From Akkermansiaceae bacterium (GTDB lineage Bacteria > Verrucomicrobiota > Verrucomicrobiia > Verrucomicrobiales > Akkermansiaceae), in NCBI GenBank assembly GCA_013001695.1, contig JABDMC010000179.1, forward strand, positions 1-40,303: a stretch of 40,303 nt of DNA. Direction: 5' to 3'. This document shows positions 13,476 to 18,375 of this stretch, piece after piece. The translations under genes and the position numbers were made by a program. The stretch's first letter is position 1, and the number at the start of each line of letters is the position of its first letter. The notes beneath the pieces are model-generated. The model was not told the DNA's origin. It was given only the letters and a program-made list of their open reading frames with translations, and made no database searches.

Positions 13476-14894
13476 ATGCCGCGGCCGTTTCTCGACGACG
13501 ACTTCCTCCTCCGCTCCGAGACCGCCCGACGGCTTTTCCACGAGGTCGCCGCGCCCCTCCCGGTCATCGACTACCACACGCACCTCCCGCCGCGGGAGAT
13601 CGCCGAGGACCACCGCTGGGACAACCTCACCACCCTCTGGCTCGGCGAGGACCACTACAAGTGGCGCGCCATGCGGGCCAACGGCATCCCCGAGTCCCAC
13701 ATCACCGGCGACGCCAGCCCCCGCGAGAAGTTCCAGGCGTGGGCCGAGACCGTCCCCCACACGATCCGCAACCCGCTCTACCACTGGACCCACCTGGAAC
13801 TCAGCCGCTGCTTTGCGATCGACACCCTGCTGGGACCCGATACCGCCGAGGAGATCTGGAACGCCGCCAACGAACGCATCGCGGACAGCACCTTCAGCGC
13901 CCGCGGCCTCCTGCACAAGTTCATGGTCGACACCGTCGGGACCACCGATGACCCCGCCGACCCGCTCGTCTGGCACGAGGCCTGTGCCACCATCCCGATG
14001 AACACCAAGGTCTACCCGACCTACCGCCCCGACCGGGCCCTCATGGTCGACCGGCCCCACCTCCTCAATCCCTTTTGCGACCAACTCGGGGTGGTCGCCG
14101 GCACTTCCGTCAACACCTTCGAGAGCCTCCTCGCGGCCCTCCGGAAACGCCACGACGACTTCCATGCCCTCGGGTGCCGCCTCTCCGACCACGGCCTGAA
14201 GTCCTGCCCGGCGACGCCGTGCTCCGCCGCCGATGCCGCCGCCATCTTCCACAACGCCCGCTCCGGACTGGACGTCGACGCCGACGATACCGACCGCTTC
14301 GCGGCCCGCGTCATGCAGGAGGTCGCCGCCTGGAACGCCGAGCGCGGATGGACGATGCAGCTCCACCTCGCCCCGGTCCGCAACCCGAACTCGCGCTACT
14401 TCGAACAACTCGGCCCCGACTCCGGCTTCGACACCATCGGCGACTGGCCCCAGGGCGAGGCCCTCCTCGGGTTCCTTGACCTCCTCGACCGCGAGAAGTC
14501 CCTCCCCCGGACGATCATCTACAACCTCAATCCCCGCGACAACGCCCTCTTCGCCGCGGCGTGCGGGTCGTTCCAGGAAGGCCCCGCCGCCTCCAAGATC
14601 CAGTGGGGGGCGGCGTGGTGGTACAACGACACCCTGCGCGGCATGACCGAGCACCTCGACACCCTCTCCTCCATCGGGCTCCTCTCGCGGTTCGTCGGGA
14701 TGCTGACCGACTCGCGCTCCTTCCTGTCCTCTCCGCGGCACGAGTATTTCCGGCGCCTCCTGTGCAACCTCATCGCCACCGACGTCGAGAACGGGGAGAT
14801 TCCCGACGATCCCGCCCTCCTCGACCCGCTGATCAGGAACATCTGCCATGATAACGCCCGCCGCTTTTTCGCGTTCCCTCACCATGCCGCCTGA
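13476..14894 (+). CDS. uxaC: Glucuronate (uronate) isomerase
   Basis: 472 aa, matching the family's usual ~470. UxaC interconverts D-glucuronate with D-fructuronate and D-galacturonate with D-tagaturonate in the cytoplasm. The metal-site motif DYHTHLPP (~33-40) is present, followed by WDNLTTLWLGEDHYKWRAMRANG, NPLYHWTHLEL, LHKFMVDTVGTTDDP, TPCSAADAAAIF and the C-terminal GMLTDSRSFLSSPRHEYFRRLLCN block, all characteristic of the family. It sits between two secreted sulfatase genes and opposite a pectate-lyase-like gene, so it probably handles uronic acid released outside. The rest of the pathway (fructuronate/tagaturonate reductase, mannonate dehydratase) is not in the window. The last 11 nt overlap the next start. 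Confidence 0.94.
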   Translation: MPRPFLDDDFLLRSETARRLFHEVAAPLPVIDYHTHLPPREIAEDHRWDNLTTLWLGEDHYKWRAMRANGIPESHITGDASPREKFQAWAETVPHTIRNPLYHWTHLELSRCFAIDTLLGPDTAEEIWNAANERIADSTFSARGLLHKFMVDTVGTTDDPADPLVWHEACATIPMNTKVYPTYRPDRALMVDRPHLLNPFCDQLGVVAGTSVNTFESLLAALRKRHDDFHALGCRLSDHGLKSCPATPCSAADAAAIFHNARSGLDVDADDTDRFAARVMQEVAAWNAERGWTMQLHLAPVRNPNSRYFEQLGPDSGFDTIGDWPQGEALLGFLDLLDREKSLPRTIIYNLNPRDNALFAAACGSFQEGPAASKIQWGAAWWYNDTLRGMTEHLDTLSSIGLLSRFVGMLTDSRSFLSSPRHEYFRRLLCNLIATDVENGEIPDDPALLDPLIRNICHDNARRFFAFPHHAA

Positions 14895-16770
14895 TTTCAC
14901 GCGCTCCCTCCTCGCCGTCTGCCTGCTCGGCCTCGCCGGCCTCCCCGGGACCCCCGCTTCGGCGGCCGCCTCGCCCAACATCCTCTGGCTCTCCGCCGAG
15001 GACCACGGCCCGCACCTCGGCTGCTACGGCGACGGCTACGCCGTGACCCCCAACGTCGACGCCTTCGCGAAACGCTCGCTGCGCTACACGCACGCCATCT
15101 CGACCGCCCCGGTGTGCGCCCCGGCGCGCACCACCATCATCGCCGGGATGTACGCCCCGGCCCTCGGCGCCCACCACATGCGCTCCGAGGTCCAGCGGCC
15201 GAAGTGGCACCGCCTCTTCCCGGAATATCTCCGCGACGCCGGCTACCACACCACCAACAGCTCCAAGACCGACTACAACTTCTTTTACGATTCGAAGGCG
15301 GTGTGGGATGAATCGTCGCGGAAGGCGCACTACAAGAACCGCCCCGAGGGGAAGCCCTTCTTCGCGGTCTTCAACCAGACCTGCACCCACGAGAGCCAGA
15401 TCCGCAACAAGAACGACAACCCCTCGCACGACCCGGCCAAGGCCCCGCTCCCGCCCTACCACCCCGACACCCCCGAGGTCCGCAAGGACTGGGCCCAGTA
15501 CTACGACCGGCTCGGCAAGATGGACGAGTGGTTCGCGAAGCAGATCGCCGCCCTCGAGGAGACCGGACTGCAGGATGACACCATCGTCTTCTTCTGGGCC
15601 GACCACGGATCCGGCATGCCGCGCGGCAAGCGCTACGCCGGGTGGTCCGGCGTCCACGTCCCCCTCATCGTCCACATCCCGGACAAGTGGAAGCACCTCC
15701 GACCGGAGGACTACTCCGCCGGCGGGATCAGCGGCCGCCTCGTGGGCTTCGTCGATTTCGCCCCGACGATTCTCTCCCTCGCCGGCCTCCGGGCGCCCGC
15801 CTTCCACCAGGGCCGGGCCTTCGCCGGGAAGTTCATCGCGGAGGCCCCGGAGTTCTCCTTCGGCTTCCGCGGCCGCATGGACGAGCGCCCCGACTCGTCG
15901 CGCTCCGTCTTCAACAACCGCTTCGCGTACATCCGCAACTTCATGCCCCACCTTCCGCACGGGCAGAGCCTCCACTACCAGCTCGAAACCCCCACCACCC
16001 GCGTCTGGCGCCGCCTCTTCCGGCAGGGGAAACTCAATGCCGTCCAGGCCCGCTTCTGGCAACCGAAGGCCCCGGAGGAACTCTACGACCTCCAGGCCGA
16101 CCCGCACGAGACGAAGAACCTCGCCGGCGACCCCGCCCACCAGGCCACCCTCCAGCGCTTCCGCGGCGCCCTGAAGGCTCACATGCAGGCCACCCACGAC
16201 CTCGGCGTCTTTCCCGAGGGGATGTTCCACGACAAGTGCGCCGAACTGGGGGTCACCCCGGGCGAGCTGATCAAGTCCCTGCCGGACTTCCCCTGGGACG
16301 ACCTCCACGCCGCCCGCGACCTCGCCCTTCACCCCTCCACCGATGCGCAGCAGGTCAAGGACCTCCTCAACTCCGGCAAGGACGCCTCCATCCGCTACTG
16401 GGCCGCGCTCTATGTCCTCTACCGCGGCGAGCACTTCGCCCACAAGGTCCACGGCGAGCTGAAGCGGCTCCTCTCCGACTCCAGCCGCAGCGTCCAGGTC
16501 GCGGCCGCCGAAACCCTCGCCTTCTACCCGCCCGACGAGGAGACCCGCGACCTCGCCATGCTGACCCTCGTCGCCAATGCCGACCCCGAAACGGCCGGTC
16601 CCTACCACTCCGTGGCCGCCCTCAACGCCCTCGAGCACCTCCCCACCTTGCCGAAGGCCGTCAAGGACCGGATCGCCGCCCTCCCCAAACAGTCCGCCTC
16701 CGCCCCCAAGCGGGCCAACGCCTACGCCGAGCGCATGCACAAGCACATCTTCCGCCCCCTGCCGGATTGA
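14884..16770 (+). CDS. Secreted Cys-type sulfatase with C-terminal HEAT-like extension
   Basis: 628 aa from ATG 14884; an upstream in-frame ATG at 14848 would overlap uxaC further. The signal peptide is SLLAVCLLGLAGLPGTPASA. PNILWLSAED begins the catalytic domain, C78-A-P-A-R82 is the formylglycine motif, and FFWADHGSGMPRGKR carries the second metal-ligand set. After the usual sulfatase end (~460) comes an all-helical extension of ~150 residues (AQQVKDLLNSGKDASIRYWAALYVL and following blocks) that reads like HEAT repeats. Such extensions occur on many PVC sulfatases. The 11-nt overlap with uxaC implies coupled translation. It differs clearly from the first sulfatase, so two desulfation steps or positions are likely. 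Confidence 0.9.
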   Translation: MPPDFTRSLLAVCLLGLAGLPGTPASAAASPNILWLSAEDHGPHLGCYGDGYAVTPNVDAFAKRSLRYTHAISTAPVCAPARTTIIAGMYAPALGAHHMRSEVQRPKWHRLFPEYLRDAGYHTTNSSKTDYNFFYDSKAVWDESSRKAHYKNRPEGKPFFAVFNQTCTHESQIRNKNDNPSHDPAKAPLPPYHPDTPEVRKDWAQYYDRLGKMDEWFAKQIAALEETGLQDDTIVFFWADHGSGMPRGKRYAGWSGVHVPLIVHIPDKWKHLRPEDYSAGGISGRLVGFVDFAPTILSLAGLRAPAFHQGRAFAGKFIAEAPEFSFGFRGRMDERPDSSRSVFNNRFAYIRNFMPHLPHGQSLHYQLETPTTRVWRRLFRQGKLNAVQARFWQPKAPEELYDLQADPHETKNLAGDPAHQATLQRFRGALKAHMQATHDLGVFPEGMFHDKCAELGVTPGELIKSLPDFPWDDLHAARDLALHPSTDAQQVKDLLNSGKDASIRYWAALYVLYRGEHFAHKVHGELKRLLSDSSRSVQVAAAETLAFYPPDEETRDLAMLTLVANADPETAGPYHSVAALNALEHLPTLPKAVKDRIAALPKQSASAPKRANAYAERMHKHIFRPLPD

Positions 16771-16846: not shown

Positions 16847-16884
16847 GGTACCTAACTTCGATAACGTTATCGAAGTTAGGTACC
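16847..16884. repeat. 38-bp perfect palindrome with no spacer
   Basis: The arm GGTACCTAACTTCGATAAC (16847-16865) is followed immediately by its exact reverse complement (16866-16884). It is about 42% GC in a region near 70%. It lies between two converging genes, 76 bp after one stop and 9 bp before the other. Neither side has a U-tract. The TAACTTCG...CGAAGTTA blocks also occur in the arms of loxP, though the distance between them is 10 here versus 16 in loxP. Confidence 0.9.
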
Positions 16885-16893
16885 AAAGCGGAG

Positions 16894-18375
16894 CTAGGGG
16901 CGGGACGGGGGGTGGCGGGAGAGGTAGCGGCTGAGGGCGGTGAGGTTCCTGGCGACGGTGCGGGAGGAGACGATGCCGGCCTCGGGGCGCACTTTCCGGC
17001 CCCGGTGGTCGCGGACCACTCCGGGTTCGAGCCAGATGCCCCGGGGGTCGCGGGTGGCGAGGAGGTCGGCGACGCGTTCGCCGCCGGGGACCGCTGCCGG
17101 CCGGGGCGGCTTTCCGGCGCGGGCCTCGCGGTAGAGCTCCTCGATCTTGTCGAGCCGCGACGGGGTGACGAAGGCGTAATGATCCGGGACGTCGCCGCCG
17201 TCGCCGGTGAGCTTGTAGTCGCGGGTGAAGTAGAGCGGGCGGTTTGTCCGGAGCTCGTAGTAGCGGGCGAGGCGGCCGTCCGGCAGCAATGATCTCCGGA
17301 GGTAGGCGAGGGCGCGCGGGACCGGTTCGAGGAAGCGCTCCTCGCCGGTGGCGTGGAACAGCGCGATCAGGATCTCCATGGCGCCCTGCGACTCGCCGCC
17401 GGTGATGGCGGGCGGCTCGAACTTGCGCTCCCACACCGGGTGCATGTGCTTGTCGTATTGCTGGGCCCAGGCCGGTTGCGGGTCGGGCATCTGGGCGCGG
17501 ATCAGGAACTCCCCTCCCCGCCTGGCGGCGTCGAGGAAGGTCCGGTCACCGAGCACCTCGTGGGCGAGGAGGAGGGTCGCGATGGCGTCCGGCGTGATGT
17601 TGTCGTTGAGGTGGTAGCATCCCGCCCATTCCTTCGGCCAGGTCCGCGGCCACGACTCGGGGTAGCTCGCATCAAACACCGGGTAATCACCGAACTCCGG
17701 CGGCGGGTCCGGAAAGGCGTCGAAGTTGTGCGACCAGGCGCCGCACGGGTACTGCGTCCCGCGCAGGGCCGCGAGCCCGTAGTCGAGGGCCCCGCGCACC
17801 TGCTTGTCGCCCCCGTCGACCTCGCGGTGGAATTCCAGCAGGAAGCGCAGCGCCGCCTGCGTCGTGTCGTCGTCGAGCATGGAACGGTTCCCGCGGTTCT
17901 TCCGCTGCTTCCACGTGTCCCACCCCGCCGGACCGGCCGCCTTGGGATTCGGGCCGCCGTCGACGCGGTAGTTGGTCCCCTTCCGGTCCTCCGGCTCGAA
18001 GTCGATGCGGTAGGGCCACCCGCCGGAATGGAGCTGCCCCCGCACCAGGGCGTGGGCCGTGTCGCGGGCGGCATCGAGGCAGGCGGCCTCGCCGGTGGCG
18101 CGGTAGGCCTCGAGGATGGCCATGCCGACGGTGGGCGATCCGGGTGGTTGCACCCACGCCGCGGTCTGGCCGGCCGGGCCCTCCCCGGCCCGCAGCGAGC
18201 CGTCCGGACTGTAGACCCACACGTAGCCGCCGTGCCGCGCGAATTCGCGGTCGAGGGTCCCCACGGCCTTCACGATCGCGGCGCGCACCTCCGCGGGCCG
18301 GGGGGGCTCCTCCCCCACCGCCGTCCACGCGCAGCCCCCGGCCGCCACGGCCGCCAGCAACAATCTCATGCCCAT
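16894..18375 (-). CDS. Secreted pectate-lyase-like protein (PL10-type alpha/alpha toroid)
   Basis: 493 aa from the ATG ending at 18375 (a second Met 6 nt on is equivalent); the ORF track's 56-residue extension crosses the ispH promoter. The signal peptide is MRLLLAAVAAGGCAWTAVG, containing a possible lipoprotein Cys. The body resembles PL10 pectic-acid lyases: GGWPYRIDFEP, SMLDDDTTQAALRFLLEFH and YHLNDNITPDAIATLL are in the family's order, with helical-toroid spacing throughout. PL10 enzymes cleave polygalacturonate by beta-elimination using an Arg base; I cannot assign that Arg securely. It converges on the sulfatase/uxaC genes and probably belongs to the same catabolic set. Another helical-toroid uronate-active enzyme is the main alternative. 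Confidence 0.72.
   Translation of the reverse strand: MGMRLLLAAVAAGGCAWTAVGEEPPRPAEVRAAIVKAVGTLDREFARHGGYVWVYSPDGSLRAGEGPAGQTAAWVQPPGSPTVGMAILEAYRATGEAACLDAARDTAHALVRGQLHSGGWPYRIDFEPEDRKGTNYRVDGGPNPKAAGPAGWDTWKQRKNRGNRSMLDDDTTQAALRFLLEFHREVDGGDKQVRGALDYGLAALRGTQYPCGAWSHNFDAFPDPPPEFGDYPVFDASYPESWPRTWPKEWAGCYHLNDNITPDAIATLLLAHEVLGDRTFLDAARRGGEFLIRAQMPDPQPAWAQQYDKHMHPVWERKFEPPAITGGESQGAMEILIALFHATGEERFLEPVPRALAYLRRSLLPDGRLARYYELRTNRPLYFTRDYKLTGDGGDVPDHYAFVTPSRLDKIEELYREARAGKPPRPAAVPGGERVADLLATRDPRGIWLEPGVVRDHRGRKVRPEAGIVSSRTVARNLTALSRYLSRHPPSRP
16897..16919 (+). other. G-quadruplex-type G-run motif beside the palindrome
   Basis: Four G-runs of at least three (GGGG, GGG, GGGGGG, GGG) are separated by loops of 1, 2 and 4 nt on the + strand. 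The motif starts 12 nt after the 38-bp palindrome and overlaps the 3' end of the - strand gene. Together they could block transcripts reading through from the + side; this is inference, as G-runs are common in GC-rich DNA. Confidence 0.45.

Follow-up and report, generated by a model that had tools for sequence, protein, structure and literature searches.

A spacerless palindrome family dispersed at low copy number in a single Akkermansiaceae genome

The palindrome and its genomic context

The window, by which we mean the whole stretch of 40,303 nucleotides analysed, is contig C339 of the host MAG, an Akkermansiaceae genome of 5.13 Mb in 399 contigs (97% complete, 67% GC). The palindrome under study lies between a sulfatase gene and a Pec_lyase-family gene, and the features of the locus are as follows:

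14848 to 16770, plus strand: sulfatase gene (PF00884, E 8.7e-37), its 3' end toward the palindrome across a gap of 76 bp
16847 to 16884, no strand: full palindrome, window copy, 19-bp arms without a spacer
16847 to 16849, no strand: left outer arm GGT, which varies among copies yet pairs with the right outer arm
16850 to 16881, no strand: 32-bp extended core ACC..GGT, found in the window, C72, C107/C398 and C237 copies
16853 to 16878, no strand: 26-bp core TAACTTCGATAACGTTATCGAAGTTA, common to all copies
16882 to 16884, no strand: right outer arm ACC, pairing with 16847-16849
16894 to 18369, minus strand: Pec_lyase-family gene (PF09492, E 1.6e-13), its stop codon 9 bp from the palindrome

An earlier note on this DNA had described a 38-bp perfect, spacerless palindrome at a convergent junction, without U-tracts on either side, and each of these points was confirmed for the window copy. 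Positions 16847-16884 read GGTACCTAACTTCGATAACGTTATCGAAGTTAGGTACC, an exact palindrome of 19+19 bases around a 0-bp spacer; the sulfatase gene (+) ends at 16770 and the Pec_lyase-family gene (-) at 16894; and T-runs, sought on both sides of the palindrome, were found on neither. Beside these two genes, the translation of positions 13476-14894 resembles glucuronate isomerase (uxaC), a predicted neighbourhood that suggests use of uronate-rich polysaccharide.

Base composition gives an expectation, for arms of at least 19 bp, of about 1.3e-6 per window and 1.7e-4 per genome. The runner-up spacerless palindromes within the window (GC 67.5%) have arms of only 8 bp, and the longest perfect palindromes elsewhere in the genome have arms of 10-11 bp in about 470 kb of 40 other contigs, which were either arbitrary picks or carriers of transposase or integrase matches. 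The sampling for other palindromes covered about 600 kb; contig C2, which reads as N, was set aside. The earlier judgement that chance could hardly have produced the palindrome holds: with an expectation of about 1e-6 per window and a sequence present at seven places, a single-copy chance palindrome is ruled out. Other repeats were seen at the starts of two contigs: C390 opens with a run of five hairpins, each different, in its first 120 bases (L135 1-120), the last being the spacerless palindrome CGGAAATTTCATGAAATTTCCG, and C350 with a near-identical direct repeat of about 170 bp (L131 1-330).

Copies in the host genome

The host MAG carries the 26-bp core, TAACTTCG(A/T)TAACGTTA(T/A)CGAAGTTA, at seven places (C72, C107, C189 twice, C237, C339 and C398), at least six of which are independent. 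The genome-wide count of exact cores that the earlier note had called for thus shows that the palindrome is not single-copy, and the idea of a dispersed intergenic repeat is supported. No copies beyond the seven were found in the host genome when as many as 3 mismatches were allowed over 28 bp, nor were any half-copies (half-site, 1 mismatch), so that degenerate or decayed copies are absent at those limits. The sequences flanking the copies are mutually unrelated, and all copies lie outside coding sequence with the sole exception of one overlap with a stop codon. The settings of the copies are as follows:

Window copy (C339): convergent, sulfatase and Pec_lyase-family genes
C72 copy: divergent, DUF7133-cytochrome c and GFO_IDH_MocA genes
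C398 copy: divergent, a 71-aa ORF and a DUF3500 gene
C237 copy: tandem, from the end of an ORF that appears transketolase-like to the start of a TonB receptor gene
C107 copy: 3' of an RNB-domain (RNase R-like) gene
First C189 copy: over the stop codon of an SNF2 helicase gene, convergent with an NTP transferase gene
Second C189 copy: 3' of a methyltransferase gene

The junctions are thus convergent, divergent and tandem, a mixture that argues against a promoter-only or terminator-only role and does not bear out the preference for convergent junctions raised in the earlier note. The sole Rfam match on the copy-bearing contigs was a tRNA, which the C237 copy has at a distance of about 5 kb.

The last 97 bp of C107 are also found in C398 (L018 8590-8686 and L021 9545-9641); palindrome and right flank, including the start of the DUF3500 gene, are identical, while the left flanks differ. 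This identity may stem from overlap in the assembly, or the palindrome may mark a true alternative junction; because of the former possibility, the number of independent copies can safely be put only at six or more. On C189, the contig end coincides exactly with the edge of the second copy, a break that a self-complementary word in the assembly graph could have caused. The two copies on this contig, 11 kb apart, both have the T..A core variant and the outer arm CGCCRCC, and their left flanks agree at about 18 of 20 bp, which is consistent with local copying. A duplicated SNF2 gene end was considered as the source of the second copy and set aside, there being no convincing protein-level match near that copy; the shared left flank comes to about 20 bp only.

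Search for copies in other genomes

Searches of 386 further genomes from the order, of the GTDB species genomes, of IMG/VR and of plasmid and phage records found no true copy outside the host MAG. A set of 57 relatives gave one match, with other spacing and sequence between the blocks. At 1 mismatch, the 386 other order genomes gave three chance-like single matches, of which two (G023 and G190) were rejected as asymmetric and the third (G372) because it does not prolong the palindrome. One match in a GTDB species genome (Nitrospinota) was rejected as a chance, asymmetric match in apparently coding DNA, and IMG/VR, plasmid and phage records gave zero matches. As for the earlier thought of a single copy absent from sister strains, the absence from sister species stands, with no true copy in any of them, but the single copy does not, given the seven places in the host. 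At the available search depth the family is private to one lineage, and its absence from the 386 other genomes of the order fits a recent, lineage-limited spread. No orthologous empty site was obtained in the genus, in which no Pec_lyase-family ortholog was close enough.

Sequence variation among the copies

Within the core, 24 of the 26 positions are invariant, and the single variable pair changes on both sides at once, reading A..T at five places and T..A at both C189 copies. The centre is fully symmetric and spacerless in all copies, and the perfect arms reach 17-21 bp at five ATAACGTTAT sites. Just outside the core, ACC/GGT is common to four sites (window, C72, C237 and C398/C107). Beyond these bases the arms read GGT/ACC, GAA/TTC, CCCGT/ACGGG and T/A, which differ yet are complementary; complementarity past ACC/GGT of 3, 3, 1 and 5 bp at four sites has a chance P of about 4e-5. 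The outer 4-8 bp accordingly vary among copies while staying complementary (GGTACC, GAAACC, CCCGTACC), and once the 32-bp core is taken away, three sites are left with GGTACC, GAATTC and CCCGTACGGG. Both C189 copies have CGCCRCC at the left, which in the first copy pairs at 5 of 7 positions with the right-hand TGCGGCG; the second has just GGC at the right before the contig ends. A longer imperfect inverted repeat enclosing the core was also considered and dropped, since the comparison of left flanks with reverse-complemented right flanks scored like shuffled sequence at most sites.

This contrast between a core with one variable pair and outer arms that vary almost freely suggests recognition of the core. 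On this view the sequence of the core would be read, whereas the outer arms would serve just to form a stem, or derive from the target. One possible reading, although on the unlikely side, is that a host protein binds the core as duplex DNA, at an operator, architectural or segregation site that purifying selection keeps perfect; an operator or nucleoid site of this kind is a close rival to a mobile unit. It would account for an almost invariant core between free outer arms, and several copies stand about 38-160 bp upstream of predicted starts (C72 and C398 on both sides, and C237). The absence of degenerate copies also speaks for it, although regulons normally have degenerate sites. Moreover, two copies lie at convergent 3' ends (window and first C189 copy), the adjoining genes have no obvious common theme, and the symmetric arms of 17-21 bp at five sites exceed the usual dimer site.

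A binding site in the specific form of parS is disfavoured, since the core does not match the TGTTCCACGTGGAACA of related genomes and no copy lies near parB, the ParB contig (C70) being free of them. The parS-like TGTTCCACGTGGAACA, common in related genomes, is itself absent from the host genome, and C70, the contig with parB, has two GCCGACACGTGTCGGC sites (L118 125-140 and 311-326), which together suggest a putatively shifted parS.

Transcription termination

The copies could also be bidirectional terminators or hairpins that protect 3' ends, perhaps with assistance from Rho, as the earlier note had proposed in part. Such a role is possible for the window copy, which, like the first C189 copy, lies at a convergent junction, and the predicted RNA hairpins are stable, at -20 to -32 kcal/mol (-26.3 kcal/mol for the window copy). 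Flanks are rich in C to the left and in G to the right at the window (16847-16884, value 0.87), C72 (L017 9465-9502, 0.72) and first C189 (L019 8088-8113, 0.37) copies, whereas at most 5.6% of control intergenic centres reach 0.35 or more in any junction class; RNA entering these three copies from either side would therefore be C-rich, as in Rho loading sites. A same-genus relative (G010, L143 3625-3654) has a spacerless 30-bp palindrome, AAAAAGCGCGGTCTATAGACCGCGCTTTTT, whose A and T tails make it look like a bidirectional terminator, and such terminators resemble the window copy in being spacerless hairpins at convergent junctions. They differ from the present family, however, in their A/T tails, in lacking a fixed core and in not occurring at divergent junctions. 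The window copy has no T-run after the stem; the copies do not always lie downstream of a gene end, those of C72 and C398 being flanked by divergent starts, a setting in which transcripts are not expected to end; and termination does not explain a fixed 26-bp sequence. For the family as a whole we therefore consider a terminator role unlikely.

Recombination, telomere resolution and artefact

The earlier note had likened blocks of the palindrome to loxP and other tyrosine-recombinase sites. Such sites likewise have two inverted 13-bp arms containing the 8-bp block TAACTTCG, but the likeness goes no further: lox- and dif-like sites place their arms around an asymmetric spacer of 6-8 bp (8 bp in loxP), whereas the centre here is symmetric, and the seven copies are scattered and have no linked recombinase. 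The genome does encode several phage-integrase-family proteins, but all of these matches fall on other contigs and no tyrosine recombinase was found on the copy-bearing ones. In C107 and C398, different left flanks are joined to a single right flank precisely where the palindrome lies, the arrangement that an exchange would produce, although the common 97 bp stand at a contig end and are perhaps an assembly-graph overlap. With half-sites also missing elsewhere in the genome, we judge a tyrosine-recombinase site to be very unlikely.

Telomere-resolvase sites of the ResT/TelK type are spacerless perfect palindromes of similar length. Here, by contrast, the 97% complete genome gave zero resolvase matches (PF16684), and the copies are mostly contig-internal with unrelated flanks on both sides; this candidate is disfavoured.

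An adapter, a cloning remnant or a chimeric assembly, which the earlier note had allowed for, could be suspected from the KpnI-like GGTACC ends and from the two of seven copies at or near contig ends. Yet the outer arms and flanks differ, the core itself has a symmetric variant, most copies are contig-internal, and plasmid and phage records gave no match. An adapter or vector remnant was rejected on the varied flanks and the missing plasmid or phage match, and an artefact of any kind is very unlikely.

Comparison with REP/REPIN elements

REP/REPIN elements are palindromes that bear a GTAG or CGTC tag and are associated with RAYT transposases (PMC3733652, PMC3116915); REP families carry loops besides their GTAG or CGTC tags, and many have 20-100 units or even fewer (PMC3733652). 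Like them, the present family consists of short extragenic palindromes with complementary stem changes, it is confined to one species as some REP families are, and its host genome has Y1_Tnp proteins. It differs in other respects. No GTAG/GGAG or CGTC tag was found at the stem end in the flanks of any copy, all copies are spacerless where REP stems have a loop of at least 2 bp, the perfect arms are 17-21 bp long at the five ATAACGTTAT sites, and there are seven places rather than tens to thousands of copies. No RAYT is linked, none of the ten Y1_Tnp matches being on a copy-bearing contig. Bacterial perfect inverted repeats in general favour intergenic siting and 4-bp spacers (PMC13155455); the family has the former but not the latter.

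Discussion

Our analysis shows that the palindrome is real, that it is repeated and private to its lineage, and that it belongs to none of the families tested. We tentatively favour, at somewhat less than even chances, the reading that this extragenic palindrome, private to one genome and dispersed there at low copy number, has a core that is recognised by sequence and has probably spread in trans as a small non-autonomous unit. Seven exact cores with unrelated flanks, at mixed junctions and without half-copies, speak for this reading. Against it, integrase and Y1 transposase matches occur only on contigs without copies, no close relative with an orthologous empty site was found, and seven copies are few for a mobile repeat, that of C107 perhaps being an assembly overlap.

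We infer both mobility and recognition from the sequences of the family. A protein acting in trans would recognise the 26-32-bp core by sequence, and the unit would be copied as a small non-autonomous element. Its outer arms could be kept complementary by passage of the element through a hairpin; alternatively, intrastrand template switching may repair the arms, since such stems are reported to be both formed and mended by template switching (PMC8794818). A further alternative is that the element enters the centre of short palindromic targets, as the GGTACC, GAATTC and CCCGTACGGG left at three sites after removal of the 32-bp core would suggest. At convergent junctions such as that of the window, the RNA hairpin may incidentally mark 3' ends. 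A more specific and distinctly less probable proposal, which we offer as speculation, is that the spacerless, AT-rich palindrome of 26-42 bp would be a minimal mobile or recognised unit that either is inserted, by copying in trans, at the midpoint of short palindromic targets or rebuilds its own symmetry, such that its outer arms differ between sites yet are complementary.

The REP-type palindromes known from bacteria have tags and loops and are often RAYT-linked, in contrast to the family described here. Being private to one species and spacerless, with a frozen core between outer arms that vary but keep their complementarity, this family offers a clean test case for palindrome spread, and it bears on how arms stay matched, whether by selection, hairpin passage or template switching.
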